Notes under the pieces: model-generated | The model's input: the letters and a program-made list of their open reading frames with translations, nothing else | What the model was told of the DNA's origin: nothing | Databases searched by the model: none | In this document: piece after piece, positions 16,043 to 39,348 of the stretch | Layout of the letters: every line of letters begins with the position of its first letter | Position numbering within the stretch: position 1 is the stretch's first letter | Assembly: GCF_008802355.1 (NCBI RefSeq) | Contig: NZ_VZRA01000003.1 | Coordinates: forward strand, 566,361 to 630,360 | Length of the DNA: 64,000 nucleotides | Source: Oryzomonas sagensis | GTDB lineage: Bacteria > Desulfobacterota > Desulfuromonadia > Geobacterales > Pseudopelobacteraceae | Direction of reading: 5' to 3' | Position numbers and translations under genes: made by a program

Positions 16043-18583
16043 TCAATCCTCCTGGTAAAACCCTTTCAGGGCCATGGCCGCCGGCAGGGTCACCAGGGAA
16101 AAGAAGGTGATGAACCCCACCCCCAGGTTCGTGGCCCAGCCGATGGAGGACATGGCGCCGTAGTCGGTCAGGGCCAGGGACCCGAACCCGACGATGGTGG
16201 TCATGGCCGAAAGGAATACCGACCGGCCGATCTGCACATACTGCCGCTCCCGTTCGCCGGGTGCCGCCCCCGTGACCCGGAAGCGGATATACAGGCCGAA
16301 ATCGCTCCCCATCCCCACGATCGTCACCAACACCATGGCATTCATGAAATTGAGCCCCATGCCGCTCAACGCCATGGTTCCCAACATGCACCCGGAGGCC
16401 GCCGCCACCGGAAACAGGGAATAGAGCACCCCCGACGGCATGCTGGCAAAATGAGCCAAAAGAAAGAACAACACCAGCACCCCACCCAACAGGAAGGCGC
16501 CGGTAAAGCTGTTCCGCACCGCATCCTTCAACTGGTTGCTGATCAGGTCGATGCCGGTCATGCGCGCCGCAGGGTCCAGAGCCGCCAGCGCGGCTTGAAA
16601 GGCGGGCAGATCGAGCGTGGAGCCGGAATAGTGCAGATACGCCAGGGCGTGGTAACCGGTGGCGGTTTTAACCAGATGGCGATCGACAACCCCCTTGAGG
16701 GGCGAGGCCGAAAGGCGGGCCACAGCCTCTTCGGGGCTTACCGGTACGGCTCGTTGCAGATTGCTCATCCCATCCAGAAACGGTTGGAACTGCTCCGTGG
16801 CAAACCCCTGCCGGTCAAGCGCCCCCCGCATGGACTTTTCAAGGCGTGCGCCGCCAAACTGCTCCCGTAGCCGGAGAGACAACTCCATTTGTGTCTTCTG
16901 GCTGTTGATCACACGGCAGAGGGATGACCACGCCACGATCTGTCCGCGCGCCTGGAGGGATGCCGCCAGTGCGTCCAGCCGAGAAACCCGTTCCAGAACA
17001 TCGGGAAGATCACGCCCCTCCAACGCCACCAGTATCTGTTTCGGCGCGATACTCAAGTTCCGTTCAATCTTCTCCTGCGCGAGAAAAGCCTCGGAATGGC
17101 GCGGCTGCAGGTTTTTGAGTTCGCCATCGAACGTGATGGCAAAGGCCGCCCAGCAGAGCCCTGCCGTCATCAACAGGGAACCTGCGGCAACCACCGCCGG
17201 ATGCCGCAGCACGGCGCGCCAGAGGCGTGGCAGGCCGAGACCGGGTATGGGACGGTAGGTGATGGGAAAGCGGCGTTCCATGAACAGCAGCAGAGGCGGC
17301 AGGAAAAACAAAGTGGCATAGAGGGAATAGATCACCCCCAGCCCCACCAGCAGGCCGAGTTCGTAGAGTGCGCGGACATCCGACACCATCAGCGCCAAAA
17401 ACGGGACCGCCGTGGTAATGGCAGCGGTGAAGACGCCGCGGCCGGTGTCGAGAATCGCCAGTTCCAACGCTTCCTGAGATGTTTTGCCGGCAGCCCGCTC
17501 GCTATGGAAACGGTCATAGATATGGATCGAATAGTCGGTGCCGATGCCGGTGATGAGGGCGGTAAAGGCAAAGGAAATGATATGGATCGACCGGAGAAAC
17601 AGCCCGGCGGTCCCCAGGGCGAACAGCACGCCGCACGCCAGGATCAGCGGAATGAGGAGGGTTGGCAACAAGCGCCGGTAGGCAATGTAGAAAATGCCCA
17701 ACACCACCAAGAGCGAGATAACGATGCTGACGAGGACATTGGACTTCATCGCCGCTTCATCCAGCACGGCGCTGATATGTGCACCGGCGCAGGAGATCGA
17801 GATCGGAGAACTACGGCGGGCATCGTTGATGGCCGCCACCAGCTTGCGGGCGAACACCATGTCCTGGACCGGTCTGGCAGGTTCGGCGATCATGATCAGC
17901 ACCGCACCGTTGCGGGAGAGAAAATAGGGGGATGCCGGATCGAGGTCGAGGGCCTGACCGCCGGTCTTGAGACGCGGCAGGATCAGGTCGCGCAGGGAAA
18001 ACGGGTCAACGGTGGCCAAGCCGCTGGCAAAACCGCCGAACTGCCCGGCCAGGTTGGCCTGGAGTTGTTGCAGGGCTGCGTTTGCCTGGTCGGGGGCAAA
18101 ACGGGCAACAAAACGAGGCAGATCATCCGGCTGAATGAAGAGCTGGGGATGGATGACGGCATAGGCAATCAGTTCTTTGAAGGATGCCGCCTGACTTTCG
18201 TCGTAGATCCTCCAGGTGATTCGTTTGAAGGCGGGCTGTCCATCGACGCGGGCCTGTCCGAGACGCTCGGCAAAACGTCCAGCCTCTGCAGGCAGGGACG
18301 GTGGATCGCCCTCCAGCAGAAAGTAGGCTTCATTGGCGCTGCCGGTCCACTCAAGCGAATCGAGCAACAGCCTGAGTGCTGGCTGGCGGGACGGGAAAAG
18401 CCGGAAGATATCCGTTTCGAAATGGATGGAGGTAATCACCGCGACCGACAGAACCACGGCAGCCGCGAACAGGCAAATGACGGCCAGGGGGCGCGTCGAG
18501 GCGACACGGAAGACCCAAGCCAGGTGACGGCGCGTAAGGGAGTTGCTGGCGGCGATGATACGTGAGGACCACGCGCGGAACAT
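16043..18583 (-). CDS. MMPL/RND-family lipid exporter
   Basis: The 846-residue inner-membrane protein has the duplicated RND layout. It contains one N-terminal membrane helix, a roughly 200-residue periplasmic loop, five helices (VLVSIVISLLVVLGIFYIAY onward) and then a repeat of the same arrangement with the second helix bundle near 670-840. The GIGTDYSIH and VTIVGMGSDFGLYI stretches match the MMPL family, which includes hopanoid exporter HpnN and exporters in aryl-polyene clusters. It is last in the fabG-KS operon, just after the LolB-like lipoprotein, so it probably moves the acyl product to the outer leaflet or periplasm. Confidence 0.88.
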   Translation of the reverse strand: MFRAWSSRIIAASNSLTRRHLAWVFRVASTRPLAVICLFAAAVVLSVAVITSIHFETDIFRLFPSRQPALRLLLDSLEWTGSANEAYFLLEGDPPSLPAEAGRFAERLGQARVDGQPAFKRITWRIYDESQAASFKELIAYAVIHPQLFIQPDDLPRFVARFAPDQANAALQQLQANLAGQFGGFASGLATVDPFSLRDLILPRLKTGGQALDLDPASPYFLSRNGAVLIMIAEPARPVQDMVFARKLVAAINDARRSSPISISCAGAHISAVLDEAAMKSNVLVSIVISLLVVLGIFYIAYRRLLPTLLIPLILACGVLFALGTAGLFLRSIHIISFAFTALITGIGTDYSIHIYDRFHSERAAGKTSQEALELAILDTGRGVFTAAITTAVPFLALMVSDVRALYELGLLVGLGVIYSLYATLFFLPPLLLFMERRFPITYRPIPGLGLPRLWRAVLRHPAVVAAGSLLMTAGLCWAAFAITFDGELKNLQPRHSEAFLAQEKIERNLSIAPKQILVALEGRDLPDVLERVSRLDALAASLQARGQIVAWSSLCRVINSQKTQMELSLRLREQFGGARLEKSMRGALDRQGFATEQFQPFLDGMSNLQRAVPVSPEEAVARLSASPLKGVVDRHLVKTATGYHALAYLHYSGSTLDLPAFQAALAALDPAARMTGIDLISNQLKDAVRNSFTGAFLLGGVLVLFFLLAHFASMPSGVLYSLFPVAAASGCMLGTMALSGMGLNFMNAMVLVTIVGMGSDFGLYIRFRVTGAAPGERERQYVQIGRSVFLSAMTTIVGFGSLALTDYGAMSSIGWATNLGVGFITFFSLVTLPAAMALKGFYQED

Positions 18584-18586
18584 GGA

Positions 18587-19288
18587 TTATTGCTTTCCTT
18601 GCAGTGCGGACAACGGGTAGATGGTCAGGTTGTCCACATGGGGGGTGAAGGCCTCCGGCGCCAGGTCGGTGTTGACCTCCGGTTCGGTGATCTTGATGCG
18701 GAAGCGGCCGCCGTCGTGGCTGTACATGATGATCTCCGTGGCCAGGGGCACGCCGTTCACCAGCTCGTAATCGTTGTAATGGGCCTCGTCGCCGTTAGCC
18801 AGACTTTTGACAACCACCAGCCCGTTCTCGAAGGTCACCCGTTCCTTCAGCCCCATACTGCCGGTCCGCTCCACGGTACCGTCGCGCAACGAACTGCCGG
18901 GGGCCGGCACCTCCATGACCCAGCGCGCCTGGCGCCAAGTATCCCCCTGCCCCTGTTGGGGAAGCTCGGCCAGCAAGCCGCGGAACGCCACCCCCTTGGA
19001 ATTGTCCACAACCGTGACCTCTTCGCCCACCACAACGGTTTCCATTATGGTGGTGCCAAAGGGGGAAAGGATCACCATCCTCATCCGGTCGGGGCGCCGG
19101 TAGAGCAGAAAGCCGTTTGCGCCCATGCCCTGTTCACCCTTGGTGATGGAGAGGGACACGCCCGCCGAAAGGGTATCCACCTGGACGCCGGGCCGATACT
19201 CAAGGGGAGGCTTGGGGGTGAAGATGGCACAGCCGGAAGCCAGGAAGAAGATGGAAAACAGGAACAATAGGGGAAAATGACGTTTCAT
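18587..19288 (-). CDS. LolB-like outer-membrane lipoprotein
   Basis: From ATG 19288 this reads 233 residues, with a lipoprotein signal peptide and lipobox LASGC near residue 20. The body has the beta-rich pattern of LolA/LolB domains: GANGFLLYRRPDRMRMVILSP, a central FGTTIMETVV strand and a late TEIIMYSH strand. LolB accepts lipids or lipoproteins from LolA at the outer membrane. An alternative start is ATG 19303. It sits between a LolA-like gene and the MMPL exporter, so the three could form a dedicated lipid-transfer path separate from the main Lol system. Confidence 0.75.
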   Translation of the reverse strand: MKRHFPLLFLFSIFFLASGCAIFTPKPPLEYRPGVQVDTLSAGVSLSITKGEQGMGANGFLLYRRPDRMRMVILSPFGTTIMETVVVGEEVTVVDNSKGVAFRGLLAELPQQGQGDTWRQARWVMEVPAPGSSLRDGTVERTGSMGLKERVTFENGLVVVKSLANGDEAHYNDYELVNGVPLATEIIMYSHDGGRFRIKITEPEVNTDLAPEAFTPHVDNLTIYPLSALQGKQ

Positions 19289-19416
19289 CGAAGGTCCGAT
19301 CATTGGTCGCAAGGGTTATCCCGAAAAAATATTTGTCGCAGCGTCACGGAGACAACGCGCTATGATGTCATACGGCATTTACGTGAGGGCAAAAGGACCC
19401 GCATTGGTTAGGTTTG

Positions 19417-20079
19417 TCACTCCAGCCGGAAATCGCGGTCCGTCAGCCCCACGTTGCGGCGCACCTTCTTGAAGGTCATCACGGCACGGTCGCCGTTCCG
19501 CTCCATGATGACCAATTTCCTGATCGTGCCATCTTCCAGGAAGGTTATGACCAGTTCCTTGACCTGCCCCTTGCCGCGGGGCGCAATGGTGACGGTATAG
19601 ACCGGGCCGGTCGCATCGGCGTGGACGCCCAGACCTTCCGGCAGGGTGGTGATCGGTGTGGCCAGTCGGGAGAACCACCGTTTCAGTCCCTGCTCCGGGG
19701 GCAGGACGATCCGGTTCCGTTCCCCGCCCGTACCCATGACCTGCTCGATGGTACTGTCCCGCAGGACCATGCGGCTGGCATAGGGTGCTTTGAGTTCAAG
19801 ATAGAACTGGTCGGGCTTGCGAAAGCGCACCGTTCCGTTCATGGTCATGGCCCGTTTCATCACCGAGAGGCGCTTTTCCTGGCTGATATCGGCCGTAAAG
19901 TCCGTGACTCCGGTAAAGGCCTTGCGGAGAGCTTCGAGCCCGTCCACGGCCGGGATCTGGCGGGCCTGGCAGGGAAAAGCGCCCACGAGCAGCAGAAACA
20001 GCGCGGCGCATACAGCAGAGGTCCGCCACCAGGTGGCGGGGCTCTGAAAAAAGCGGGAACCTCGTGCAATCGGCATCAT
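19417..20079 (-). CDS. LolA-like periplasmic lipid carrier
   Basis: The 220-residue protein has an N-terminal signal segment (AVCAALFLLLVGAFPCQA, residues 22-39). A LolA fold follows, with FTADISQEKRL near residue 60, MNGTVRFRKPDQFYLEL near 80 and a late VKELVITFLEDG strand. LolA shields an acyl chain in the periplasm between the inner and outer membranes. The start overlaps the dehydratase stop by ATGA. In aryl-polyene clusters a LolA-like protein occurs in the same setting. Confidence 0.82.
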   Translation of the reverse strand: MMPIARGSRFFQSPATWWRTSAVCAALFLLLVGAFPCQARQIPAVDGLEALRKAFTGVTDFTADISQEKRLSVMKRAMTMNGTVRFRKPDQFYLELKAPYASRMVLRDSTIEQVMGTGGERNRIVLPPEQGLKRWFSRLATPITTLPEGLGVHADATGPVYTVTIAPRGKGQVKELVITFLEDGTIRKLVIMERNGDRAVMTFKKVRRNVGLTDRDFRLE

Positions 20080-20456
20080 AGTTTACCTACTCCCAGGGTA
20101 AGTTGGGCCGTCACCAGCGTCCGGCCGTCGCATGTCACCTCTCCCTCCACCATGAAAAGCCTGCCAAAGGCCTTGATCACCCGAACCGAGACCGAAAGCT
20201 CATCTCCGGCCCGGGGCGCGCCGGAGAATTCGGCCCGGTCGACGGCCGCCAGAAAACCACCCTCCCCCTCGTCCTGAATGGTGAGGATGCCGGCCAACTG
20301 GGCGATGCACTCCACCAGCAGCACCTGGGGAAAGCTGCGGCCCGACGTGACGGCAACCCGGGCGGCCGCACGGGCGCCGGTCTCCAGTTCGACGACCCGG
20401 TCAAGGAGCAGAAAGGGGTAACGGTGGGGGAGATATGCCGCAGGATCAGACGTGAT
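20076..20456 (-). CDS. FabZ/ApeI-like 3-hydroxyacyl-ACP dehydratase with apparent ATC start
   Basis: A 126-residue hotdog-fold dehydratase that would remove water from 3-hydroxyacyl-ACP. YLPHRYPFLLLDRV near the N-terminus carries the catalytic His (residue 11), and LLVECIAQLAG near 50 supplies the acidic residue. The first ATG in frame, at 20324, would delete the catalytic His. Upstream of the motif and downstream of an in-frame TGA there is no ATG, GTG, TTG or CTG. The best candidate is ATC at 20456, with AAGGGAG six bases upstream, overlapping the end of the preceding gene by 11 bases. The FPG loop of FabZ is shortened here. Confidence 0.8.
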   Translation of the reverse strand: MTSDPAAYLPHRYPFLLLDRVVELETGARAAARVAVTSGRSFPQVLLVECIAQLAGILTIQDEGEGGFLAAVDRAEFSGAPRAGDELSVSVRVIKAFGRLFMVEGEVTCDGRTLVTAQLTLGVGKL

Positions 20457-21531
20457 GCGAAGCTCCCTTCACTTCGCCGGGGATGCACGCCGTGGCTGCG
20501 CCTCCCGTGAAGCGGATGGCGTAGTAGGGGCCCTCGGGAGAGGCCGCCAGGTGCACCCCCTGTTGGCCGGGCTGAAGCTTGGCCAGCAGGGTAGCCATGG
20601 CCGTGCCCCCCATGGCCAGGGAACGTCCCAGAATGGCGGCGGTGTCGATGATGCCCCGGGCCTCGACCCGTTGCATCAGAAGCGGGGTGCCGCCGACGGT
20701 GCCGGAAAGGGAGAGCAGATCGCATCGCTCAACGCCGCTGAACAGACGTTCCACCCCCTCCTGTTCACGACCGGCCGGGAGCAGGCCGATGGTGGCGACC
20801 GTTCCGACTCTTCCCTTGACCGGGGCATTGCGGCGGGCGGCGTGGGCCGCGCTCTCCAACACCAGGATGCCGCTCCCCTCGCCGAAACAGGCGGCATAAC
20901 GCCGCAGTTGGCCGGTGGCGGCAAAGCCTGCGATCATCAGCGGCGTCAGGTCATCGGCCCCGCCGGTCACCATGACGTCGGCCCGCCCTTCGGCGATGAA
21001 ACGACAGGCCATGACAAAGGCCGACTCGGCTGAGCAGAAGCGCTGCACCAGGGTAACGTTGGGGCCCTTCAGGCCATGCTCGATGGAGGCGTTGCTGGCG
21101 GGAGCATTGGAGACGGTATTGGGGAAGAGCACCGGCGCCAATCCCTCGGCGCCGCTTTTGAAATAACCGCCGAGAAATTCGGCGGAATTGGCCACGCCAC
21201 CGAAACCGCACCCCAGGGCGATCCCGATCCGCTCGGGATCGATGCTCTTCAGATCAATCCCGGCATCCTTGAGAGCCAGCCCCGAGGCACCGACGGTAAA
21301 GTGGCTGCACCGGTCCATCTTGCGAGCCTTGAGCGGCGGCATGAAATCCGAGGCCTTGAAGCCTGACGCTTTGCCCCAGCGCTGGCCCGCCCCCCCCGGC
21401 ACATCGTCCGGTACGGGCGACAGGGCGTCCCGACCCGACCCGAGGAGTTCCAGCACCGCCTTCATGCCGTTGCCGGCGGCGGTCACGGCCGAGAAGCCGC
21501 TGACGACGATATCGTTGAAGGAGTAGATCAT
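20446..21531 (-). CDS. Ketosynthase-like chain-length factor
   Basis: A 361-residue ketosynthase-fold protein, somewhat short for the family. It keeps the nucleophile region as RFCSAESA (Cys166) and the late GEGSGILVLES. Both catalytic His motifs of the adjacent ketosynthase are gone: the NAHGTGT position reads SLSGTVGGTP and the GH motif reads ILGRSLAMGG. This pattern fits a chain-length-factor partner (as ApeC with ApeO). ATG 21531 overlaps the ketosynthase stop (ATGA), as expected for heterodimer subunits. A longer frame from 21639 lies inside the ketosynthase gene and is rejected. Confidence 0.85.
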   Translation of the reverse strand: MIYSFNDIVVSGFSAVTAAGNGMKAVLELLGSGRDALSPVPDDVPGGAGQRWGKASGFKASDFMPPLKARKMDRCSHFTVGASGLALKDAGIDLKSIDPERIGIALGCGFGGVANSAEFLGGYFKSGAEGLAPVLFPNTVSNAPASNASIEHGLKGPNVTLVQRFCSAESAFVMACRFIAEGRADVMVTGGADDLTPLMIAGFAATGQLRRYAACFGEGSGILVLESAAHAARRNAPVKGRVGTVATIGLLPAGREQEGVERLFSGVERCDLLSLSGTVGGTPLLMQRVEARGIIDTAAILGRSLAMGGTAMATLLAKLQPGQQGVHLAASPEGPYYAIRFTGGAATACIPGEVKGASHHV

Positions 21532-22733
21532 ATGCCCAGCACCAGTGATGTGATGTTGCCCCCGAAGGCAAAGGAATTGGACATGGCGATGTCGGCCTCG
21601 CAGGAGCGTTTCCCCTCGTGGCAGTAGTCCAGGTCGCATTCCGGGTCGCGGCCACGGAAGTTCAAGGTTTGGGGAATGATGCGATGATTGAGGGCGATGA
21701 CCGTGGCCAGGGCCTCGATAGCGCCGGCCGCCCCCAGACAGTGGCCGGTCATGGCCTTGGTGGAGATCAGCGGAACCGAGGGGATCCGTTCCCCGAAGAC
21801 CAGCTGCATGGCATGGGACTCCACCACATCATTGAGCGGCGTGCCGGTGCCGTGGGCGTTGACCCACCCTACCCGACCGCTGTCGATACCGGCTGCGGCA
21901 ATGGCGTTGCGCATGACCCTCGCCGCCGTGGAACCGGTCGGCTCCGGAGCGGTCATGTGATACGCCTCGCCGGCCAGGGCATAGCCGAGTACGGCCCCAT
22001 ACACCCGGGCTCCCCGCGCCACGGCATCCTCTTCGCTCTCCAACACCAGAAAGGCCGCTCCCTCTCCCAGGGAAATTCCCTGACGCCCCAGGCTGAAGGG
22101 GGAGCAGGGCTCGGGATCGACCACCTTCAGCGAATTGAAGCCGCCGAAGGTCAGAAGCGACAGGGTATCGGAACCACCAGCCAGCACGGCGCGCTGTTGG
22201 CCGGTGGCAACCAGTTCGGCGCCCCAGCCGATGGCGGTGGCCGAGGAGGAGCAGGCCGTGGTGACCGTCCCCTGGTAGCCGGCAAGGTTGCAGGCCCGGG
22301 CTATCTCGGTGGCGGTCTTGTCGGGCAGCACGCCGCGCAGCAAGACCGGCGGCGCGTTCTCTCCAACCAGCTGCGCTTTCAGCCACCGCTCCGCCTGGAA
22401 CATGCCGGCCGCCCCTCCACCCATGGAAATCCCCATGTCAAAGGGTGAATAGGTCTCGGACAGGCCGCTGTCCGCCAGGGCCTCAGCGGCGGCGATCAGG
22501 CCGAACTGGTCGGCACGGGAGAGTTTCCGCGCCGTTATACGGTCGAAATGGTCCAGCGGATCATACCCCTTGACCTGGCAACCGATATGGGAAGGAAAGG
22601 CCGACACGTCGAACAGGTCCAAGGGCCCGATGCCGCTCTTACCGTTCAGCAGGGCATCGCTGAACTGGGCCACATTCTTGCCGGCCCCGCAGAAAACCCC
22701 CAGCCCGGTTATGACAACGCGTTTTTTAACCAT
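21528..22733 (-). CDS. FabF-like beta-ketoacyl-ACP synthase
   Basis: Condenses acyl and malonyl-ACP to lengthen a chain. The 401-residue protein has the complete Cys-His-His triad: TACSSSA (Cys161), NAHGTGTPLND and KAMTGHCLGAAG. The closing NSFAFGGNITSLVLGI is the usual end of FabF proteins. It is coupled by ATGA to the chain-length-factor-like gene and follows the ketoreductase by 91 bases. The gene is not beside fabH, fabD or acpP housekeeping genes, so it probably serves the dedicated pathway here. Confidence 0.92.
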   Translation of the reverse strand: MVKKRVVITGLGVFCGAGKNVAQFSDALLNGKSGIGPLDLFDVSAFPSHIGCQVKGYDPLDHFDRITARKLSRADQFGLIAAAEALADSGLSETYSPFDMGISMGGGAAGMFQAERWLKAQLVGENAPPVLLRGVLPDKTATEIARACNLAGYQGTVTTACSSSATAIGWGAELVATGQQRAVLAGGSDTLSLLTFGGFNSLKVVDPEPCSPFSLGRQGISLGEGAAFLVLESEEDAVARGARVYGAVLGYALAGEAYHMTAPEPTGSTAARVMRNAIAAAGIDSGRVGWVNAHGTGTPLNDVVESHAMQLVFGERIPSVPLISTKAMTGHCLGAAGAIEALATVIALNHRIIPQTLNFRGRDPECDLDYCHEGKRSCEADIAMSNSFAFGGNITSLVLGI

Positions 22734-22824
22734 TTAGCACCGTATATCGATACGTTATATTAACAATATAAAGTAAAACCTGAACAACAAAATCCCCGGA
22801 TCCTCCCCCAGGGCACATCTGTTC
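22734..22824. other. AT-rich spacer between ketoreductase and ketosynthase genes
   Basis: A 91-base spacer with an unusual AT-rich core, including the inverted repeat TATATT-AAC-AATATA (22756-22770) and a CGTATATCGATACG-like palindrome. It could hold a secondary promoter for the ketosynthase gene or an RNA processing site. No clear -35/-10 pair stands out. Confidence 0.3.
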
Positions 22825-23565
22825 CTAGACCGTGCCGCCATCCACGACCAAGGTCTGGCCGGTGATGTAGGAGGCCCGCTGGGAGGCCAGAAAAAGAACC
22901 GCTTCGGCGACCTCTTCGGGGGTGCCGATCCTGCCGAGGGCCGAGCCTTTGACGATCCGTTCCACCACGTCCTGCTTCAGCCCGGCGGTCATATCGGTTG
23001 CAATCAGGCCGGCCACGACGGTGTTGACCCGGATGCCCATCCCCCCAACCTCCCGGGCCAGGGATTTGGCAAAACTGATGGCGGCCCCCTTGGAGGCTGC
23101 GTAATTGGTCTGGCCGGCGGTGCCGGTCAGGGCGGAAATGGAGGACACCGTCACGATGCTGCCGCAGCGGCGGGCCATCATCTTGCGCACCCCCCACTTG
23201 CAACAGTGGAACAGGGGGGAAAGATTGGTGTGCATGACCGCCGCCCAATCCTCTTCGGCCATCATGGCCAGCCAGCCGTCGCGGATGATACCGGCGTTGT
23301 TGACCAGTACGTCGATATGGCCGCTCTCGCGCGAGGCCGCGTCGATCAGCTCCCTGGCCCCTGCAGCCGTGCCCACGTCGGCCTTGATCACGCTGATCGT
23401 GCCGGCCAGCCCCTGCGCCTCAGCGACCAGAGTTGCCGCCGCCTGGTCGTTGCTCAGGTAGGCGGCAAAGACGCGTGCCCCCTGACGGGCGAACAGCAGG
23501 GAAACGGCCCGGCCAATGCCGCGCGTGCCGCCGGTTACCACCACGATATGGTCTTTGAATTCCAT
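22825..23565 (-). CDS. FabG-like 3-oxoacyl-ACP reductase (SDR)
   Basis: NADPH-dependent reduction of 3-oxoacyl-ACP. The 246-residue short-chain dehydrogenase has VTGGTRGIGRA at residue 10, the NNAG motif near 86, catalytic Ser (VSSIS) near 138 and the YAASK tetrad near 152-156. The end DGGTV is usual for FabG. The start is ATG 23565, with CCGGAG six bases upstream; a longer frame from 23583 has no ribosome-binding site. It is the first gene of the operon fabG-KS-CLF-dehydratase-LolA-LolB-MMPL. Confidence 0.92.
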   Translation of the reverse strand: MEFKDHIVVVTGGTRGIGRAVSLLFARQGARVFAAYLSNDQAAATLVAEAQGLAGTISVIKADVGTAAGARELIDAASRESGHIDVLVNNAGIIRDGWLAMMAEEDWAAVMHTNLSPLFHCCKWGVRKMMARRCGSIVTVSSISALTGTAGQTNYAASKGAAISFAKSLAREVGGMGIRVNTVVAGLIATDMTAGLKQDVVERIVKGSALGRIGTPEEVAEAVLFLASQRASYITGQTLVVDGGTV

Positions 23566-23570
23566 CGAAA

Positions 23571-23621
23571 CTCCGGTGAACATCTGATTACAAGGTCTTC
23601 ATTCTAACGTTTTCACCGGAG
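23571..23621 (-). promoter_or_regulatory. 10-bp inverted repeat around the fabG operon start
   Basis: CTCCGGTGAA (23571-23580) and TTCACCGGAG (23612-23621) are perfect inverted copies separated by 31 bases. One arm lies in the promoter spacer and the other over the fabG ribosome-binding site, so the arms bracket the -10 box and transcript start. Because the distal arm is not transcribed, a DNA operator is more likely than an RNA hairpin. The regulator is unknown. Confidence 0.5.
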
Positions 23622-23629: not shown

Positions 23630-23723
23630 GAGCTGACATCAATTGTGCCCATCTACAGAGATCCAAGTCCTTTCGTTTTACGGCTTTTCAGCCGCCGGGG
23701 TGATTGCTTCGGTGTGAAGGCCC

Positions 23724-23753
23724 TTGACAGCGCGGCCGGTACGCTTGTATGGT
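23724..23753 (+). promoter_or_regulatory. Promoter of riboswitch-ribB
   Basis: A perfect TTGACA (23724-23729) is followed after 18 bases by TATGGT (23748-23753, four of six). It ends about 10 bases before the riboswitch begins, as expected for the RNA leader. Confidence 0.6.
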
Positions 23754-23762
23754 GATCGCACT

Positions 23763-23910
<148 letters not shown>

Positions 23911-24031
23911 GCAGCGACCCACCCACTTGGTAACCGACATCCAACCGACACGCATCCACGTGCGCGCCGGCATGTCCCGTCTGCCGTCCTGCCGCCCTGA
24001 GACCAATTCCCCTTGTTGAAGGAGTCGAATC

Positions 24032-24679: not shown

Positions 24680-24712
24680 ACGGCGTTGAGGCGATCAAGG
24701 GGGGATAACGTG

Positions 24713-24765
24713 GTTGATTCCGCCGCCGTGCCGCTTCTATTCGCGGGCATGGCAGCGGAATCAAC
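24713..24765. other. Long intergenic hairpin after ribB
   Basis: GTTGATTCCGC (24713-24723) pairs perfectly with GCGGAATCAAC (24755-24765). The 31-base interior can also pair imperfectly (GCCGTGCC with GGCATGGC). It lies between the convergent ribB and DUF2461 genes. No T-run follows, so it is not a classical intrinsic terminator but may protect transcript ends. Confidence 0.5.
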
Positions 24766-24818
24766 TGCCTGACAGGGATGGTGTACCAGCCGAAAATTTT
24801 CAGCTGACGCGGTGAGCC

Positions 24819-25502: not shown

Positions 25503-25552
25503 CGCGTTACTCCCTGTCTAGTGCGGAAACGGCGTCATCCCGTGGAGTGCCG

Positions 25553-26017: not shown

Positions 26018-26057
26018 GTCGACAACTCCTTATCGGTATGGATTGTATTGTCAGGGC

Positions 26058-32527: not shown

Positions 32528-33855
32528 GGTTTTATTCCTTGCTCGTGACCAAGGGGGCCGCCGGAACCCTTTGGGGGGTACACGACCTCCTCGTCCCCGT
32601 AGACGCCTCCCCGGCGCAGGACATTATAGGCCAGATTGACGAGCTTGCCGTTTCCCCGCATGACGCGCGAGAGGACCGAGGGCCAGCGGTAGACCTCACG
32701 ACGCGCCGCCCGCCATCCCCGGTACAACTGCTCCGGCGACATCAGCTTGGGACGGAAGACCACCTGATTATGGTCATAGTGCTGCCACTCCTTATGGAGC
32801 ATGCGCCCCTCCCGATCGAACTGCTCGAACAGCGCCGTACCGGGATAGGGGGTCAGGATGTGAAAGGTCGGGATACTGGGCGCACACTCCTCCAGATACC
32901 GGACCGTGGTCTCGAAAACGCTCTCGTCATGGTCATCGAAGCCGAAGATCATGGAGGCTTCCAGCACGATGCCGGTGTCCCGCACCCGTTTGATCAGGTC
33001 GGCCTGACTGAATCTGCTGCCGGTCTTGGGGTGGTTGGCCTGGAGCCCGGTGACCGATTCGATGCCGACAAAGATGCCGATGCAACCGGATTGTGCCAGG
33101 AGGCTCACCAATTCGGGGTCCTCGGCAAAGCGGAGATTGGCCTGCCCGCCCCAGCGCAGCCCGAGACCGGCCATGCCGCGCAGGATCGGCTTGGCCCGCT
33201 CCGGGTCGCCCAGGATATTGTCATCGAGAAATACCGTCAGCTTGCGGTCGAAGGAGCGCAGTTCCGCCAGGATGTCGTCGGGGTCGCGATAGCGGAAGGT
33301 GCGGCCGAAATAGGGGGTGACCGTGCAGAACGGGCAGTCGTAAGGGCAGCCGCGGCTGGCCTGAATGGTCTGGGTGGTAAGGTAGGTGCGGCCCGCCAGA
33401 AAATCGCGCCGCGACCAGGGGATCTCCAGGAGATCGCCATGGGGGATGGCGCGGTAGCGCGGCGCCATGCGCCCGGCCTGCAGATCGCTCAATAGCTGCG
33501 CCCAGACCGGCTCCGCCTCGCCGATCACCACCGCATCGGCATGCTGTAACGCCTCGTCGGGAAGCACCGTGGGATGGATGCCGCCCAAAACCACCGGAGT
33601 CCCCCGCTGCCTGAAACGGTCGGCAATCTCATAGGCCCGGACCGCCTGATGGGTCATGGCGGTAATTCCCACCAGGTCGAATTGGCCGTCAAAAGGGATA
33701 TCTTCATGGATTTCGTCGGCCAGCAGCACCTCCCACTCGGGCGGCGTTGCCGCGGCGACCTGCTTCAGGGAGAGGGACGGAAGTTGAAAACGGCGCACCC
33801 ACCCCAATTTTTGGGTGGCGGGATAGATCAACAGCAGTCTCGGAGCGGCAGTCAT
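32524..33855 (-). CDS. B12-binding-domain radical SAM protein (cluster copy 2, tandem paralog)
   Basis: From ATG 33855 the protein has 443 residues: a cobalamin-type domain (PSLSLKQVAAATPPEW, VVLGGIHPTVLPDEAL), a radical SAM motif CPYDCPFC (Cys170, 174, 177), FLDDNI, and FVGIESV with LTPYPGTALF. It is clearly related to the next gene upstream (33932-35218), sharing ATPPEW, PRAYEIAD/VRAYEIAD, LPDEAL-HADAVV and GRTFRYR/GRKYRKR. It is therefore a tandem duplicate. The frame is open from 33918, but no better ribosome-binding site was seen there. Confidence 0.86.
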   Translation of the reverse strand: MTAAPRLLLIYPATQKLGWVRRFQLPSLSLKQVAAATPPEWEVLLADEIHEDIPFDGQFDLVGITAMTHQAVRAYEIADRFRQRGTPVVLGGIHPTVLPDEALQHADAVVIGEAEPVWAQLLSDLQAGRMAPRYRAIPHGDLLEIPWSRRDFLAGRTYLTTQTIQASRGCPYDCPFCTVTPYFGRTFRYRDPDDILAELRSFDRKLTVFLDDNILGDPERAKPILRGMAGLGLRWGGQANLRFAEDPELVSLLAQSGCIGIFVGIESVTGLQANHPKTGSRFSQADLIKRVRDTGIVLEASMIFGFDDHDESVFETTVRYLEECAPSIPTFHILTPYPGTALFEQFDREGRMLHKEWQHYDHNQVVFRPKLMSPEQLYRGWRAARREVYRWPSVLSRVMRGNGKLVNLAYNVLRRGGVYGDEEVVYPPKGSGGPLGHEQGIKP

Positions 33856-33931
33856 CACAACGATACCGCCCCCGGATGGCATGGCGCTGCCGCGGCGCCC
33901 TCCCCTGCCGAAGACCAAACGGCCCGATGCG

Positions 33932-35218
33932 TCATGCCGTCACCTTCCTGCGCTTCAAGGCCGCGCGGAAACCGAAATTCATCGGTCCGAAGACCTGCAC
34001 CGAGCGGTGCAGTTTGAAAATCCGGCGGTACATGGACGAAAAGGAGTAGAATGAGCGGCAGAGTTGTTCATAACCCTGCTGGAGCTGTTCGGCACTCATG
34101 CCGAGCGGCCGGAAGGTAACGTGTTCCATATCGTAGTCGCGCCAGTTGTTGGAAAAGATGCGCCCTTCGGCCTCGAGGCGGCGACGGACGCTGGTTCCGG
34201 GATACGGGGTCAGGATGGGAAAGATGGCCGCCTCGAGACGGGCGTCCTCGCAAAAGCGCAACGTCTGTTCGAAGATGGCCGGGGTATCGCCATCGTACCC
34301 CATGACAAAGGAGCCCAGAATGCCGATGCCATTGTCGCGAAAGGCCTGGGCGTCCTCCAGGTAGGAACGGGCCCGGTTGGTGACCTTGCCCATGGCCGAC
34401 AGGGACTCCTGGTTCAGGGATTCGAAGCCCACGAACATCCCCACGCAGCCCGATTCCCCAGCCGCCTTCATCAACTCCCGGTCGGCGGCGAAATCGATGG
34501 GTGAATGGGAGAGCCACTTGAAATCCATCCCCTTCATGCCGGCAAACAGTTCCAGGGCGTACTTCCGGTCGGCAACGATGTTGTCATCCACAAAAAAGAG
34601 AAACGAGTTGGCCTTGCGGAGCAGCTCAAGTTCCTGCAGGATGTTTGCCACCGGCCGCTTGCGATATTTGCGGCCGTAGAAAGCGGTCACCGAGCAGAAC
34701 TCGCAGTCGAAGGGGCAGCCGCGGGTGGTCTGGACGGTGTTGGTGAGCAGATAACGCTTCCCCGTAAAGATCTCGCGGCGGGCGCGAGGAATGGCGGCCA
34801 TCTCCATCTGGGTGCCGGATTGGTAGAGGCGCTTGAGGCTCCCCTGGCGATAGTCGGCCAGAAGCTGCGGCCAGACCAGTTCCCCCTCCCCCACCACCAC
34901 GGCATCCGCGTGGCCGAGCGCCTCGTCCGGCAGGTTGCTGGCATGGAAGCCCCCCATGACCACCGTCTTCCCCCGGCGGCGGAATTCGTCGGCGATCTCG
35001 TAGGCGCGGGGCGCCTGGGGGGTCATGGCGGTCAGGGCGACGAGGTCGGCTGTGCAGCAGTAGTCAATGGTCTCGAAATTGTCGTCAAGGAAGGCGACGT
35101 CCCATTCCGGCGGGGTAACGGCGGCAATCGACGCCAGGGAGAGGGTGGGAAACTTGAAGGCCAACTCCCCCCACAGTCGCCCCTTTTCCCAGCCGGGCGA
35201 GACGAAGAGCACCTTCAT
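33932..35218 (-). CDS. B12-binding-domain radical SAM protein (cluster copy 1, tandem paralog)
   Basis: The 428-residue protein has a cobalamin-type domain (PTLSLASIAAVTPPEW, VVMGGFHASNLPDEAL), a radical SAM motif CPFDCEFC (Cys168, 172, 175), FVDDNIVADR, FVGFESLNQES and LTPYPGTSVR. It is paralogous to the following gene throughout its length. The start overlaps the ACP stop (ATGA), so the enzyme is made together with the carrier protein, consistent with ACP-bound or lipid substrates. The reaction is not known. Confidence 0.88.
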   Translation of the reverse strand: MKVLFVSPGWEKGRLWGELAFKFPTLSLASIAAVTPPEWDVAFLDDNFETIDYCCTADLVALTAMTPQAPRAYEIADEFRRRGKTVVMGGFHASNLPDEALGHADAVVVGEGELVWPQLLADYRQGSLKRLYQSGTQMEMAAIPRARREIFTGKRYLLTNTVQTTRGCPFDCEFCSVTAFYGRKYRKRPVANILQELELLRKANSFLFFVDDNIVADRKYALELFAGMKGMDFKWLSHSPIDFAADRELMKAAGESGCVGMFVGFESLNQESLSAMGKVTNRARSYLEDAQAFRDNGIGILGSFVMGYDGDTPAIFEQTLRFCEDARLEAAIFPILTPYPGTSVRRRLEAEGRIFSNNWRDYDMEHVTFRPLGMSAEQLQQGYEQLCRSFYSFSSMYRRIFKLHRSVQVFGPMNFGFRAALKRRKVTA

Positions 35219-35472
35219 TTTTTATGTTCCGCGATATACTCCGCCATGCTGCGCACCGAGGCAAACACCTTCGTGCCGGTGGCCGCGTCGGGCACGACCA
35301 CGCCGAAATCCTTTTCCATGGCCACAACCAGTTGCAGGGCATCTATGGAGTCGAGCCCCAAACCTTCGCCGAACAGGGGGGCGTCGGTCTCGATCTCGTC
35401 GGGGGACATCCCTTCGATGCGCAGGCTTTCAATGATCAACTGTTTCACTTTTGGAATCAACTCTTCACTCAT
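35215..35472 (-). CDS. Acyl carrier protein
   Basis: The 85-residue acidic four-helix protein carries GLGLDSIDALQL with the phosphopantetheine-accepting Ser42. It diverges from housekeeping AcpP (DSLD replaced by DSID and a longer helix 2-3 loop), so it is probably pathway-specific and carries the growing chain between the ketosynthase, reductase and dehydratase encoded at 20-24 kb. It lies 45 bases after the LpxL-like acyltransferase and is coupled to the radical SAM gene that follows. Confidence 0.92.
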   Translation of the reverse strand: MSEELIPKVKQLIIESLRIEGMSPDEIETDAPLFGEGLGLDSIDALQLVVAMEKDFGVVVPDAATGTKVFASVRSMAEYIAEHKK

Positions 35473-35516
35473 TCACAAGTCCTCTCACCAATATAGTGCC
35501 TCGCACGTGCCTTTTG

Positions 35517-36434
35517 TCAGCGTTCTTCCCTTCGTTTGCGCGGTTCCGCGGCGGAGTGTTCCCCGCCCCAGAAATCGAAGAAATTGTACCACTGGTCGGG
35601 ATACCGCCCGATATAGCGTTCGAACACCGCAGCCAGTTGTTCCATACCGCTCCGAATCGCCTCGGTATGCCCCCCATGGCCCCCTTTGAAATAGATCGGT
35701 TCATCCATCAACGTGGCGTACCGATCCCCCTCAAGCGGTACGAAGACCGGGATGACCGGAGCTCCGCTGGCCAGGGACAGATAGGCGGCCCCCACCGGGA
35801 AGGGGGTCGGCTTTCCGAAAAAATCAATGATGCTGGTATGGGAAGAGCCGTCGCGCTCCCCCAGGAGGCAGAGCACCTCGTTGCGCCGCAGGGCGTTGAC
35901 CGCCTCGATGATCGCAAGTGGCGAGGTATCGTCGCGATCGACGTAAATAAAGCCGATACCGCGCATGCCGCGCACCTTCTCCCGCAGTTCGTTCACCTTC
36001 TCATCAGGCTCCCGGAAGGTGAGCACGTTGACCTTGTATCCCAGGTCGGCCAGTCCCAGTCCGCCCAGTTCCCAGTTGCCGAAATGGGGCGAGACCAGGA
36101 TGGCGCCGGTTCCCGCGGCCAGAGCGTCGTCCAGCGGTTTCTGGGTACTGCGCCGGCCGATGAGGGCCTGCAACCGTGGGCCGGTAAGGCGCATCATCAG
36201 CATCACGTCGCACCAGTTGCGTGCATATTTGTAGTAGGCTGAAACCACCAGCCGCTCCACATTGGCGCGTCCGGTGACGGTGCGCATGTTTGCCCGAAAG
36301 CCGCGGCGCTTCTCGCCAAGAAGGAGGTAGAACAGCATCACGCAGCAGAAGGCGGCCGGAGGAAACAGCCTGCGCGGCACCACAATGGTGAACAGGTTGA
36401 TAAGGAACAGGTTGATACCGCTGTAGAGGGCCAT
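35517..36434 (-). CDS. LpxL/HtrB-like membrane acyltransferase
   Basis: The 305-residue protein has an N-terminal hydrophobic anchor (residues 5-40). The catalytic HX4E motif is SPHFGNWELGG (His117, Glu122), then DRDDTSP, LGERDGSS and FFGKPTPFP typical of the LpxL/LpxM lysophospholipid-acyltransferase family. It would transfer an acyl chain, perhaps from the cluster ACP, to a lipid or sugar-lipid acceptor at the inner membrane. ATG 36434 comes right after the radical SAM stop; the longer frame from 36623 overlaps that gene and is rejected. Confidence 0.9.
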   Translation of the reverse strand: MALYSGINLFLINLFTIVVPRRLFPPAAFCCVMLFYLLLGEKRRGFRANMRTVTGRANVERLVVSAYYKYARNWCDVMLMMRLTGPRLQALIGRRSTQKPLDDALAAGTGAILVSPHFGNWELGGLGLADLGYKVNVLTFREPDEKVNELREKVRGMRGIGFIYVDRDDTSPLAIIEAVNALRRNEVLCLLGERDGSSHTSIIDFFGKPTPFPVGAAYLSLASGAPVIPVFVPLEGDRYATLMDEPIYFKGGHGGHTEAIRSGMEQLAAVFERYIGRYPDQWYNFFDFWGGEHSAAEPRKRREER

Positions 36435-36435
36435 C

Positions 36436-37812
36436 TTAGGTGCGCGACGCCTTTCCCTTTTTGACCGGGTGCCCCTTGAATTCCGCCTCCCACGCCTCAT
36501 CGGCGATCTCGCCGTAGCGTCGGGAATAGTCGTCCATACTGTCCGCCAGGCCGGTAAAGATCTCATCGGCTCCCTCGTGGGTGGCGTAGGCCCCTTCCGA
36601 GGCGAACAGTTCACGGCCCGCATCGGGGTGATCGATCAGCATGCAGGGGCGCAGCAGGTTGTCGTGCTCCCCCTGTTTCTGCCGGATTTTCTGGAACAGC
36701 GGCGACGCCAGCGCATCGCGCAGTGACGTGCGACGGATGTTATCCGCGGCAAAGTGGCAGAAGACGCACGGTTCGATATCGCCGTTGGCATTGATGTGGA
36801 AATATTTTCGCCCTCCGGCCAGACAGCCGGAGATCATCGGGCCGTCGTTCCAAAAATCCACGAACAGCATCGGCTTGGTGGCCCGGTAACCGGTCACCGT
36901 CCGGCGCAGGAGATCGCGCTGCTCGGGGGTCGGCATCAGCTCGGGGTCAGGCTTGCGCCCCACCGGCACGTAGGAGAACAGCCACATGGCAAAAACCCCC
37001 TTGTCCAGGAGCATGTCGATGTAACGGGCATTGGTGATGATGTCAGTGTTCTTGCGGGAATGGGTGAACGAACCGCAGAAGGAGAGCCCCCCCTCGCGCA
37101 GCAGGTCCATGGCCCGCATGACCTTTTTGAAATGCCCGGCCCCGCGACGTTCGTCGGTCTCCTGCTCATATCCCTCCAGCGAGAAGGCCGGCATGACGTT
37201 GCCCACCTCGGTCAACCGCTCCACCATCCGCTCGTCGATCAGGCCGCCGTGGGTAAAGACCAGAAAGGCCATGTCGCTGTGCTTCTTGAATATCTCGAAG
37301 ATGCCTTTCATGTAGAACGGCTCGCCGCCGGAGATGACCGCAAAATAGATTCCCATCTCCTTGAGCTGGTTCAGCACCGAATCAAGTTCGTCCAGGGAGA
37401 GTTCCAGGGATTTTTTGTAATCGCCGGCATAGCAGCCGTAGCAGGAGAGATTGCAGCGCATGGTCGGGCTGATCACCACGGTGGAGGGGGGATAGAAGCC
37501 GTTTTGGTCGGCCCATTCCTTGCGTTTGTTGGTGCCGTTCAGCAGGTGATTTATGGCCAGGTTGCTGATCCACTTGTCCCGCTGGTTGGGGTGCAGGTCG
37601 CGCAAGATGCGGCGGGGGAATTCGATACTGGGATGTTTCTCGCGGATCAGGCCGCGAATCCAGCGGATACGTTCTTTGTAGTAGTCTTTTTTGGGAATCA
37701 ACTCCATCAGGTGCGTCATCTTGATCAGGGTCTCATCCGATGAATTCGTCGCCATGGACAGGAGGTACGAGAGCACTTTTTCCCTGGTATAGTTTTTCAG
37801 TGTCTGGATCAT
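36436..37812 (-). CDS. Radical SAM protein without B12 domain
   Basis: The 458-residue protein has a roughly 100-residue helical N-terminus. A radical SAM domain follows with MRCNLSCYGCYAG (Cys120, 124, 127) and the SAM-binding GGEPF near 169. It ends with cysteines that could hold an auxiliary cluster (DIEPCVFCHF). Its layout resembles HpnH-like and other enzymes of lipid pathways rather than the B12-type copies in the same operon. ATG 37812 has GGAG upstream; a GTG at 37821 is an alternative. The substrate is unknown. Confidence 0.85.
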   Translation of the reverse strand: MIQTLKNYTREKVLSYLLSMATNSSDETLIKMTHLMELIPKKDYYKERIRWIRGLIREKHPSIEFPRRILRDLHPNQRDKWISNLAINHLLNGTNKRKEWADQNGFYPPSTVVISPTMRCNLSCYGCYAGDYKKSLELSLDELDSVLNQLKEMGIYFAVISGGEPFYMKGIFEIFKKHSDMAFLVFTHGGLIDERMVERLTEVGNVMPAFSLEGYEQETDERRGAGHFKKVMRAMDLLREGGLSFCGSFTHSRKNTDIITNARYIDMLLDKGVFAMWLFSYVPVGRKPDPELMPTPEQRDLLRRTVTGYRATKPMLFVDFWNDGPMISGCLAGGRKYFHINANGDIEPCVFCHFAADNIRRTSLRDALASPLFQKIRQKQGEHDNLLRPCMLIDHPDAGRELFASEGAYATHEGADEIFTGLADSMDDYSRRYGEIADEAWEAEFKGHPVKKGKASRT

Positions 37813-37867
37813 GCTTTCCACTCCACTCGTCTGAATCGGTTCGGTTGGTACGTCGGTGTTATCTTCC

Positions 37868-38530
37868 TTACATGTAACGCAGGAACGTCATGCAGATGTT
37901 CCAGGTATCCCGCACCGGACGGAAATGGCTCGTGGCGCGGCCATCGGCCACCCGCGCCGGCACCGCGAGGGAACCGATGGAAAACCCGCTGCGCCACGCC
38001 TTCATGAGAATTTCCATCTCCAGGTTATAACCGTCGGCAGCAAGCGCCACCGAGCGGAGCAGCCGCCCGGAATAGCAACGGAACCCGGACTGGCTGTCGC
38101 TGATCTCAAACCCGGTCCGCTGGCGCATGCACCAGACGCCGAAACGGTTCCAGACCTTGCGCAGGCCGCCCATCTCCTGGAACTGGCTGAAGCGGGAGGC
38201 GATCAGGATATCGAAACCGCCATTCCGGAAAGCAGCGACCAGCCGCGGAATCGAGGATACATCATGCTGGCCGTCGGCATCAAGAGTGACGACGGCATCG
38301 CAGTCATGCTCCAGCGCCCACGCAAAACCGGTCCTGAGCGCCCTCCCCTTGCCCCGGTTGCGATTATGGCGCAACAGGAGCGCCCCATACCCGGCAGCTA
38401 TACTCGCCGTGGCGTCGGCCGACCCGTCATCCACCACCACCAACGGATACCCCAGGCAGGAACACTCCTCCAGGATCGCGGCCAGGGTCTTCTCGGCGTT
38501 GAACGCCGGGATCAGGATACAGACTGCCAT
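37868..38530 (-). CDS. Glycosyltransferase family 2 protein
   Basis: The 220-residue GT-A-fold transferase has IPAFNAEKTL near residue 7, VVVDDGSADAT near 32, NRGKGRALRTGF near 57 and the metal-binding LDADGQHD near 84. It is dolichyl-phosphate-mannose-synthase-like and lacks the membrane helices of larger members. It would add a sugar from a nucleotide sugar to a polyprenyl phosphate or lipid. It overlaps the deacetylase gene by 19 bases. Aryl-polyene clusters also contain GT2/acyltransferase genes. Confidence 0.9.
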   Translation of the reverse strand: MAVCILIPAFNAEKTLAAILEECSCLGYPLVVVDDGSADATASIAAGYGALLLRHNRNRGKGRALRTGFAWALEHDCDAVVTLDADGQHDVSSIPRLVAAFRNGGFDILIASRFSQFQEMGGLRKVWNRFGVWCMRQRTGFEISDSQSGFRCYSGRLLRSVALAADGYNLEMEILMKAWRSGFSIGSLAVPARVADGRATSHFRPVRDTWNICMTFLRYM

Positions 38531-39348
38531 GAATCGACCATTTCCCGCAAGGTGATAAACGTGTAGCCGGCCAAGAGCCTCCGAAGCCGCGGCAACGCAT
38601 CCCGGCGCGTCCCATAGGAGGCAAAGCGTTTCAGGAGCGGCAGCTTGAGACGCGGCCCCAGGGGGTCAACCTCACGGGGATGCAGGTACAGCACTGCCGG
38701 CCGGCCGGCCCGGCCATACCTCTCGACCGTCGCCGCGATCAGCCCGAATGGAAACAGGCGGAATCCCCATCCGCCACCGGTGGGCAGATTTCCCAAGGGT
38801 GACCCTGATACCATGGGCGGTATCTCCCACAACGCCCCGTGCGCCGTCTCGATCCGGTACGGGTGACGAGCAGCGTTTCGATCCCCGATAAAGGGGAGCG
38901 GGTTGCGGCTGGAGTCGTAGCGATAGCCGCGCTGCGCCAGGATGTCGTCAAACCAGGGGGTATGGGCTGTTGCCGACCACTGGGGGGCGCGAAATCCGAC
39001 CGGCAAGCTACCGGTGATCCCCATGATGACGTCTTCGGTCTTGTGCAATTCATCCGCAAACTCCGCCGAGCTGAGTTCGTGGACCAGACGGTGCGAATAA
39101 CCGTGGGAGGCGATCTCATGCCCCTGCCGATGAATGGTGCGCACCAGCTCCGGATCGGCCTCTGCCACACAGCCAAGGACAAAAAAGGTTGTTTTTACCC
39201 CAAACTCTGCGAACAGGTCAAGCAGCACCTCCGTGGCTCTGTGGACACGCCAGTCATCAGGCGGGATACACGGCTGCTGTTTGAGACCACAGACGTGAAA
39301 CCAATCCTCCAGGTCAACCGATAGGCTATGTACGGCTTGCTTCGCCAC
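38512..39348 (-). CDS. NodB-type polysaccharide deacetylase
   Basis: The 278-residue protein has the NodB homology region. It contains the motif VDLEDWFH (Asp12/Asp15), TTFFVLG, the zinc ligands SHGYSH near 81-86, GFRAPQW near 117 and YLHPREVD near 215. The C-terminal FASYGTR resembles the DUF3473 extension. No signal peptide is seen, so it may act at the cytoplasmic face. It is the first gene of the long minus-strand operon. The GTG start 39348 has GGAGG upstream. It could deacetylate an N-acetyl-sugar on a lipid carrier. Confidence 0.9.
   Translation of the reverse strand: MAKQAVHSLSVDLEDWFHVCGLKQQPCIPPDDWRVHRATEVLLDLFAEFGVKTTFFVLGCVAEADPELVRTIHRQGHEIASHGYSHRLVHELSSAEFADELHKTEDVIMGITGSLPVGFRAPQWSATAHTPWFDDILAQRGYRYDSSRNPLPFIGDRNAARHPYRIETAHGALWEIPPMVSGSPLGNLPTGGGWGFRLFPFGLIAATVERYGRAGRPAVLYLHPREVDPLGPRLKLPLLKRFASYGTRRDALPRLRRLLAGYTFITLREMVDSWQSVS

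Follow-up and report, generated by a model that had tools for sequence, protein, structure and literature searches.

Among the described systems closest to the locus presented here are two kinds. Aryl polyene (ape) and ishigamide synthases use a heterodimer of a ketosynthase (KS) and a chain-length factor (CLF) together with a ketoreductase (KR) and a dehydratase (DH), and have no reductase; they are not known to contain radical S-adenosylmethionine (SAM) enzymes. The other kind is found in anammox bacteria, where the gene cluster kuste3335–3352 is a candidate for ladderane synthesis. According to passages of PMC9821293, the route of ladderane biosynthesis is unsolved and no pure culture of anammox bacteria exists; when the anammox genes were expressed heterologously, ladderanes were not obtained and the radical SAM proteins kuste3342 and kuste3343 went undetected (passages of PMC9821293 and PMC4790861). 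"Ladderane" biosynthetic gene clusters have been called in many non-anammox phyla, with no function assigned in the passages of PMC9902471. The locus described here lies in a 64,000-nucleotide stretch of the Oryzomonas sagensis genome (contig NZ_VZRA01000003.1, positions 566,361 to 630,360; order Geobacterales), called the window below. On its minus strand, between positions 16043 and 39348, Pfam and NCBIfam searches recovered all the enzymes named in a preliminary description: a KS with a CLF-like partner, a KR and a DH, as in the ape and ishigamide synthases, and in addition an acyl carrier protein (ACP), an acyltransferase (AT), a thioesterase (TE), an LpxL-type acyltransferase, a family 2 glycosyltransferase (GT2), a deacetylase (DEAC), an MMPL exporter, LolA- and LolB-like carriers and five radical SAM proteins (RS1 to RS5). 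The locus probably encodes a type II synthase, complete in itself, whose product would be exported to the outer membrane as a lipid with a chain altered by radical SAM enzymes, a reading to which we would give a probability of roughly 0.6.

Kinship with the anammox ladderane-candidate cluster

RS1 (28460–29839), a B12-binding radical SAM protein assigned by model score, trees and predicted fold, scores 408.7 bits against NCBIfam TIGR04072 (rSAM_ladder_B12), above the curated cut-off of 360. Of 297 genomes in a sample of the phylum, 63 have a protein that reaches this cut-off, as against 0 of 14 controls; the top scorers of the phylum sit in another type of cluster. When named genomes were scanned with an RS1 alignment, the 80 best-scoring loci among at least 510 relatives came from delta-proteobacteria, Nitrospirota, Bacteroidota and Lentisphaerota, among other groups. 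These 80 included one anammox bacterium, Candidatus Jettenia ecosi (locus L217). Here the gene order is deacetylase, KS, CLF-like, methyltransferase, KS, AMP ligase, SPASM radical SAM, B12 radical SAM, ACP, FabZ, methyltransferase, MMPL, amino-oxidase and GT2, which matches what the passages of PMC4790861 give as the functions of kuste3352 to 3335; the exceptions are FabG (3341) and the second ACP (3350), neither of which was seen. Upstream of L217 on the Jettenia contig (L231:3152–9508), on one strand, are LpxL, LolA, VTT, another SPASM radical SAM gene and an RS4-like gene. Altogether, this one contig has similarity to the window for 12 gene types, weakly so for RS5, a possible orthologue of the SPASM protein kuste3343, at 26% identity over 302 residues (60 bits).

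A tree built from 52 RS1 proteins makes the window type, in which f11 and f14 relatives are included, sister to an anammox type consisting of Jettenia and three genomes of the window's own phylum. The two form one clade (support 99/91), which is split (100/99) from a Bacteroidota group and from a group that belongs to a second type of cluster, labeled "aryl-polyene-like" in this analysis from its gene content. Grouping the anammox RS1 with the aryl-polyene-like sequences was rejected in a topology test (approximately unbiased test, p-AU 2.4e-5), grouping it with six intermediate sequences was weakly rejected (p-AU 0.036), and a quick tree of 132 rows gave the same sister relation (SH-like approximate likelihood ratio test, SH-aLRT, 87). 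The MMPL tree, from which two long rows were left out after a long-branch warning in the first tree, joins Jettenia to the window type (100/99.6). A quick LpxL tree also places Jettenia on the window-type side (SH-aLRT 99), in a group that holds three other LpxL proteins. Among the loci compared, close DUF3473 deacetylases occur only in window-type loci, Jettenia and L115, with hidden Markov model (HMM) scores of 265 and 185 versus 66 or less in loci of other types; the argument from DEAC rests on these scores, its tree having 13 rows, one of them very long. RS1, MMPL, LpxL and DEAC thus side with the anammox cluster, contrary to the separation from ladderane genes that the preliminary description had implied.

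No phytoene-desaturase-like amino-oxidase, no (phenylacetyl-CoA-ligase-like) AMP ligase and no SAM-methyltransferase is encoded among the open reading frames (ORFs) of the locus that were scanned, and the three amino-oxidase matches in the genome all lie outside it. Because these genes are missing and AT, TE, LolB, RS2 and RS3 are added, the locus was not filed as a ladderane cluster; the preliminary description had likewise taken it not to be the anammox cluster in full. Judged by its genes, the locus appears to be a sister variant of the ladderane-candidate synthase clusters and not a ladderane cluster itself.

Conservation and organization of the locus

How widely is the gene set kept together? 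Of 76 genomes of the family, 48 carry a CLF orthologue (E below 1e-80), 46 carry RS1 (E up to 1e-150) and 48 carry RS5 (E up to 1e-60), and this conservation, as seen in CLF, excludes chance. CLF and RS1 occurred together in 45 genomes, CLF only in 3 (G027, G035 and G067), RS1 only in 1 (G050) and neither in 27 (Fisher p 3.8e-16, ancestry ignored). Within the 39 genomes of genus g4, the corresponding counts were 18 with both, 2 with CLF only and 19 with neither. In a sample of 117 genomes of the order, family members included, 65 had both CLF and RS5, 2 and 2 had a single one and 48 had neither (p 7.6e-28, ancestry ignored). The two genes shared a contig in 45 of these 65 genomes, within 21 kb in 44 of them; in G004 they are about 40 kb apart. 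In the other 20 they are on separate contigs, in some cases deep within long ones; G001, G064 and all 8 sampled genomes of genus g212 have the halves on separate contigs. The strongest indication that the two halves of the locus share a function is their joint presence in genomes that do not have them linked. This co-occurrence supports one functional unit, as the preliminary description had supposed, and the possibility of two unrelated operons was rejected. Its term "orphan", on the other hand, does not fit a set that is spread over the order, and Geobacter is already listed among bacteria with similar clusters at one place in the text seen of Rattray 2009 (PMC2649909). Literature searches found no treatment of the locus in Geobacter later than that paper.

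The architecture was compared by tblastn over 26 stitched family loci and the window (27 loci, some cut by contig ends) and with profile HMMs. In the window, the genes fall into two minus-strand halves, 16043–23583 (KR to MMPL) and 28460–39348 (DEAC to RS1), and had accordingly been described as two operons. At root this is not so: many relatives have a single run, in the order DEAC-GT2-RS5-LpxL-ACP-RS4-(RS3/RS2)-AT-TE-RS1-KR-KS-CLF-DH-LolA-LolB-MMPL, and RS1 adjoins KR in 16 of the 27 loci. Six loci (the window, G037, G049, G051, G052 and G053) have 4–9 kb between RS1 and KR, and four (G001, G004, G064 and G073, the last cut by a contig end) have no RS1 within the fetched stretch. In G027, which lacks RS1, TE adjoins KR; this locus (L072, L073) is a natural test of the contribution of RS1. 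The minimal form, in G075, has 16 genes, no insert and three radical SAM genes (RS5, RS4 and RS1). RS2 is present in 10/27 loci and RS3 in 17/27, RS3 and RS4 being sister paralogues (96/81). Neighboring genes within the halves overlap by 4 bases at 7 of 16 junctions (taking the CLF start as 21531 and counting KS/CLF).

The insert between the halves (23653–28463, mixed strands) contains ribB (24032–24679, plus strand) and genes for DUF2461, PNPOx, aldo-keto reductase and major facilitator superfamily (MFS) proteins, and is not part of the system. Parts of it are present in four other loci of the genus, and PNPOx, aldo-keto reductase and MFS genes were found at this site in 0 of 22 loci from other genera. 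(ORFs 23653–24033 and 23852–24673 were rejected as genes, as they overlap ribB on the opposite strand or match no family.)

Genes and catalytic motifs

Genes were called from Pfam and NCBIfam searches of the main ORFs scanned between 13041 and 43797. B12 domains were found in RS1 to RS4 and a SPASM domain in RS5. DEAC (38512–39348) is a polysaccharide deacetylase with DUF3473 (PF01522/PF11959), whose nearest NCBIfam model, TIGR03006, is under cut-off, and the AglJ/PpgS-like GT2 (37868–38530; PF00535) likewise has only NCBIfam matches under cut-off. RS5 (36436–37821) is 72–98% identical to its full-length matches in the genome searches. The LpxL-type acyltransferase (35517–36434; PF03279) has its HX4[DE] motif in 18/18 sequences; the listed ORF extends to 36623, and the start was placed at Met 64. 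ACP (35215–35472; PF00550) is above the cut-off of NF006617. RS4 (33932–35218) and its paralogue RS3 (32524–33918) both combine B12-binding and radical SAM domains with DUF4070; by architecture, RS4 belongs to the minimal set, and RS3, placed by the tree, varies among relatives. So does RS2 (31088–32527), which is similar over its full length to the hopanoid C-3 methylase HpnR (231.8 bits, under the NCBIfam cut-off of 650). AT (30255–31091; PF00698) is a malonyltransferase-like, MdcH/FabD-like acyltransferase, and TE (29836–30258; 4HBT) is a hot-dog thioesterase of YbgC/FadM-like type.

In the other half, the FabG-type KR (22825–23583) is followed by a FabF-like KS with intact motifs (21528–22733), which is under the NCBIfam FabF equivalog cut-off. 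A canonical FabF (680.7 bits) is encoded elsewhere in the genome; hence the KS of the locus is not the housekeeping ketosynthase, and a role in primary fatty-acid synthesis was rejected. CLF (20446–21531), identified by Pfam and motif alignment, lacks the catalytic residues. The FabZ-like DH (20076–20456), for which NCBIfam FabZ matches are under cut-off, was delimited by codon inspection. It has no in-frame ATG, GTG or TTG in the window, G049 or G052, where a Shine-Dalgarno-like AGGGAG precedes ATC or ATT; in G075, an ATG lies upstream of the conserved part. The DH of the window probably starts at ATC. The half ends with a LolA-like periplasmic carrier (19417–20079; PF03548), a LolB-like lipoprotein (18587–19312; PF03550) with a lipobox-like LASGC in its sequence, and the MMPL/HpnN-like exporter (16043–18583; PF03176), assigned by Pfam, NCBIfam and its tree.

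Over 27 family members, the Cys and first His of KS are present in 27/27 and the second His in 26/27. In CLF, the Cys column holds Phe in 26/27, the first His is replaced by Ser in 25/27, the second His by Arg in 21/27 and the Lys by Gly in 14/27. The G. sulfurreducens protein NP_951518 in Table 2 of Rattray 2009 (PMC2649909, seen in part) has the same Phe, Arg and Gly replacements, with Pro and not Ser as the entry for the first His, and is probably the CLF of this locus type. All sequences checked from the six radical SAM families have the CX3CX2C motif. The AlphaFold model of RS1 (pLDDT 90.2) has TsrM as its nearest solved structure, followed by MgmA, AprD4 (a radical SAM dehydratase), CysS, OxsB and TokK; the modeled fold is that of a cobalamin radical SAM enzyme and would be compatible with both methylation and ring closure.

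Several neighboring genes were also noted. Facing the MMPL end on the plus strand, at 13041–16036 and so just beyond the span of the preliminary description, are a sixth B12-binding radical SAM gene (13041–14459), a BrkB gene and a gene for a PagL-like lipid A deacylase (15449–16036). The first and last lie near the locus in several genera and are possible accessories; homologues of the sixth radical SAM protein (46–48%) and PagL-like genes also occur within aryl-polyene-like radical SAM clusters of the phylum. A stand-alone Cas6-like protein is encoded at 39440–40360 (minus strand), with the lipid locus on one side and succinate dehydrogenase/fumarate reductase genes on the other, a place that it keeps in several genera (29–95% identity).

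Proposed pathway and alternative explanations

What might such a synthase make? From the gene set we infer the reactions, the polyene state of the chain, the headgroup and the destination of the product as follows. AT would load malonyl onto the dedicated ACP. Chain extension would be the work of KS, paired with the inactive CLF, and KR and DH would process each beta-keto group. Since no enoyl reductase was seen in the locus, the chain is expected to stay a polyene. While still on ACP, it would be altered by the cobalamin radical SAM enzymes. RS1 and RS4, both in the minimal set, would probably form C–C bonds, by ring closure or methylation; RS2 and RS3 would be lineage-dependent extras, RS2 most likely a methylase, given its full-length similarity to HpnR. 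RS5 presumably has a strongly conserved role, for which no reaction is proposed. LpxL would then take the chain off ACP and pass it to an acceptor; the headgroup, possibly an amino-sugar, would be built by GT2 and DEAC, and MMPL, LolA and LolB would carry the product to the outer membrane, with TE editing or releasing chains. The preliminary description had proposed an undescribed outer-membrane lipid with a radical-modified chain; the transfer and export genes fit the outer-membrane lipid, while the radical modification is still a matter of what we infer.

Several observations weigh against this pathway or against its tie to ladderane chemistry. The product is a prediction from genes, and the export genes would fit an outer-membrane lipid yet do not prove one. 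A housekeeping enoyl reductase may be used even though none is present in the locus. The closest solved fold to RS1, TsrM, is a methyltransferase. RS1 is not always needed, as G027 retains the locus without it and with only a divergent RS4-like gene, and relatedness among the genomes inflates the p-values for co-occurrence. The RS4 tree does not resolve the place of the Jettenia RS4. The kinship with the anammox cluster is, moreover, not uniform over genes, because KS, CLF and KR match other Jettenia loci better: KS is 35.6–35.9% identical to other Jettenia loci (on two contigs) vs 32.8% to the ladderane-candidate contig, CLF 29.4–30.9% (one contig better) vs 25.5%, and, within the stretches of Jettenia that were read, KR has its match on one of those other loci and not on the ladderane-candidate contig. 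The two further Jettenia loci, which have KS pairs as well as RS4-like genes, appear to resemble kuste2802–2805 and 3603–3608.

The chain modification can be read as methylation or as ring closure. The radical SAM enzymes could be C-methylases and the product an unsaturated outer-membrane lipid that has several methyl branches and lacks rings, which is possible, although we lean against it: the HpnR-like RS2 and the TsrM-like fold of RS1 argue for it, and the place of RS1 in the clade of the anammox ladderane-candidate enzyme, a proposed ring former whose role is itself unproven, argues against it. Conversely, RS1 and RS4 might close rings on the ACP-bound polyene, so that Geobacteraceae and their order would make a carbocyclic, ladderane-like chain in an exported outer-membrane glycolipid. 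We regard this as unlikely. If true, it would mean that ladderane-like chains are not confined to anammox planctomycetes, and that anammox kuste3335–3352, with its LpxL, LolA and MMPL neighbors, is an outer-membrane lipid system whose role in ladderane synthesis needs retesting. That the locus makes true ladderanes, as proposed for anammox bacteria, is highly improbable. Kinship in RS1, MMPL, LpxL and DEAC and the 12 gene types shared with one Jettenia contig point that way, but the locus lacks the desaturase-like, ligase and methyltransferase genes, the amino-oxidase matches of the genome lie elsewhere, and a Desulfotalea with a similar cluster yielded no ladderanes (Rattray 2009, PMC2649909, in the part seen).

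It is improbable, too, that GT2 and DEAC are envelope polysaccharide genes that merely lie beside a lipid synthase. The resemblance of DEAC to an XrtA-system deacetylase would suit this, but wherever DEAC and GT2 were detected in the family (19 loci), they and RS5 are neighbors, and the Jettenia cluster, too, includes a close DEAC. Least credible of all is the reading of the locus as an aryl-polyene or flexirubin cluster that has gained further genes. The core of such clusters (KS, CLF, KR, DH, ACP, LpxL-type transferase, LolA and MMPL) is all present in the window, and the flexirubin LolA2 and FlxB models of NCBIfam are matched, but both under cut-off (LolA2_flexi 51.6 vs 125; FlxB 216 vs 340). 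Aryl polyene and flexirubin clusters feature an aryl starter ligase or lyase; no such domain was found in the main ORFs scanned at 13041–43797, which also hold a single DH and a single ACP. KS and CLF score higher against FabF than against 6smo and 6kxd, taken here as the aryl-polyene and ishigamide KS/CLF pairs, and in trees RS1, LpxL and MMPL are separate from those of aryl-polyene-like clusters. Membership of the aryl-polyene clusters was rejected on the model scores and missing starter genes, in agreement with the preliminary description. The exported outer-membrane lipid with a radical-SAM-altered chain is retained here as the preferred reading.

RS1 of the window is in the sister group of the clade holding the anammox candidate enzyme, and the locus may offer an easier organism than anammox bacteria for studying ladderane-type chemistry; the family includes bacteria with working genetics (Geobacter). 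The comparison also suggests that the anammox cluster shares the outer-membrane export module, of which the literature passages seen make no mention.

Comparison with related clusters

Within the family, eight genomes (G003, G013, G014, G026, G032, G038, G057 and G058) have RS1-like genes at 280–318 bits and 35–39% identity, all in aryl-polyene-like neighborhoods within the fetched stretches (only 5.4 kb in G014). At least one of the window-type CLF, RS1 and RS5 is present in 50 of the 76 genomes; the second type occurs in 0 of these 50 and in 8 of the 26 others, leaving 18 with neither. This mutual exclusion (Fisher p 8.3e-5, ancestry ignored; p 0.02 within g4) looks like that of alternative lipids for one role. 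A score-threshold artefact was rejected as its cause, since 19 further RS1-like matches in the family (208–274 bits) do not belong to clusters of this kind: no KS, ACP or LpxL was found beside these genes (L242–L260) in the stretches read, some of only 3–7 kb. These B12 radical SAM genes are present in many family genomes, many of them window-type. The second type, with B12 radical SAM genes, is represented in Geobacteraceae by L146, L148, L149, L150, L154, L183 and L234–L241. Shared sequence identifies some of the family genomes with the Geobacter sp. records L146 and L148, which makes Geobacteraceae a very probable name for the family of the window. RS1-like genes adjoin KS, ACP and LpxL at L188, L192, L194, L206 and L215, in Bacteroidales, an Alistipes and Victivallis vadensis, some of these loci also having KR and deacetylase or GT2 genes.

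Compared with the window, the aryl-polyene-like clusters (for example Geobacter sp. metagenome-assembled genomes L146, L148 and L149; Syntrophus L151; Victivallis L206) have in common RS1- and RS4-like genes, LpxL, ACP, KS, CLF, TE, LolA and MMPL, though not all in every locus. Their own features are two KS/CLF sets and a GT2-DUF2062 fusion (L112). Unlike in the window type, no AT, RS5 orthologue or close DEAC was seen in them; an RS5 search at E 1e-40 gave no match in ten genomes (nine aryl-polyene-like and Jettenia), a set that held no known positive.

The anammox cluster (kuste3335–3352; Jettenia L217/L231) shares more of the set. Identity to the window is 43% for RS1, 41% for ACP, 40% for the RS4-like B12 radical SAM protein upstream of L217, 37% for DEAC, 33% for LpxL and for KS, 32% for GT2, 26% for FabZ, 25% for the CLF-like protein and 22% for MMPL, and LolA is similar to the window LolA over 64 residues. 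The anammox cluster has as its own a phytoene-desaturase-like enzyme, an AMP ligase, a pair of SAM-methyltransferases and proteins of the VTT and ATP-grasp types, whereas the window has as its own AT, TE, LolB, RS2, RS3 and a SPASM protein that appears to be a different one.

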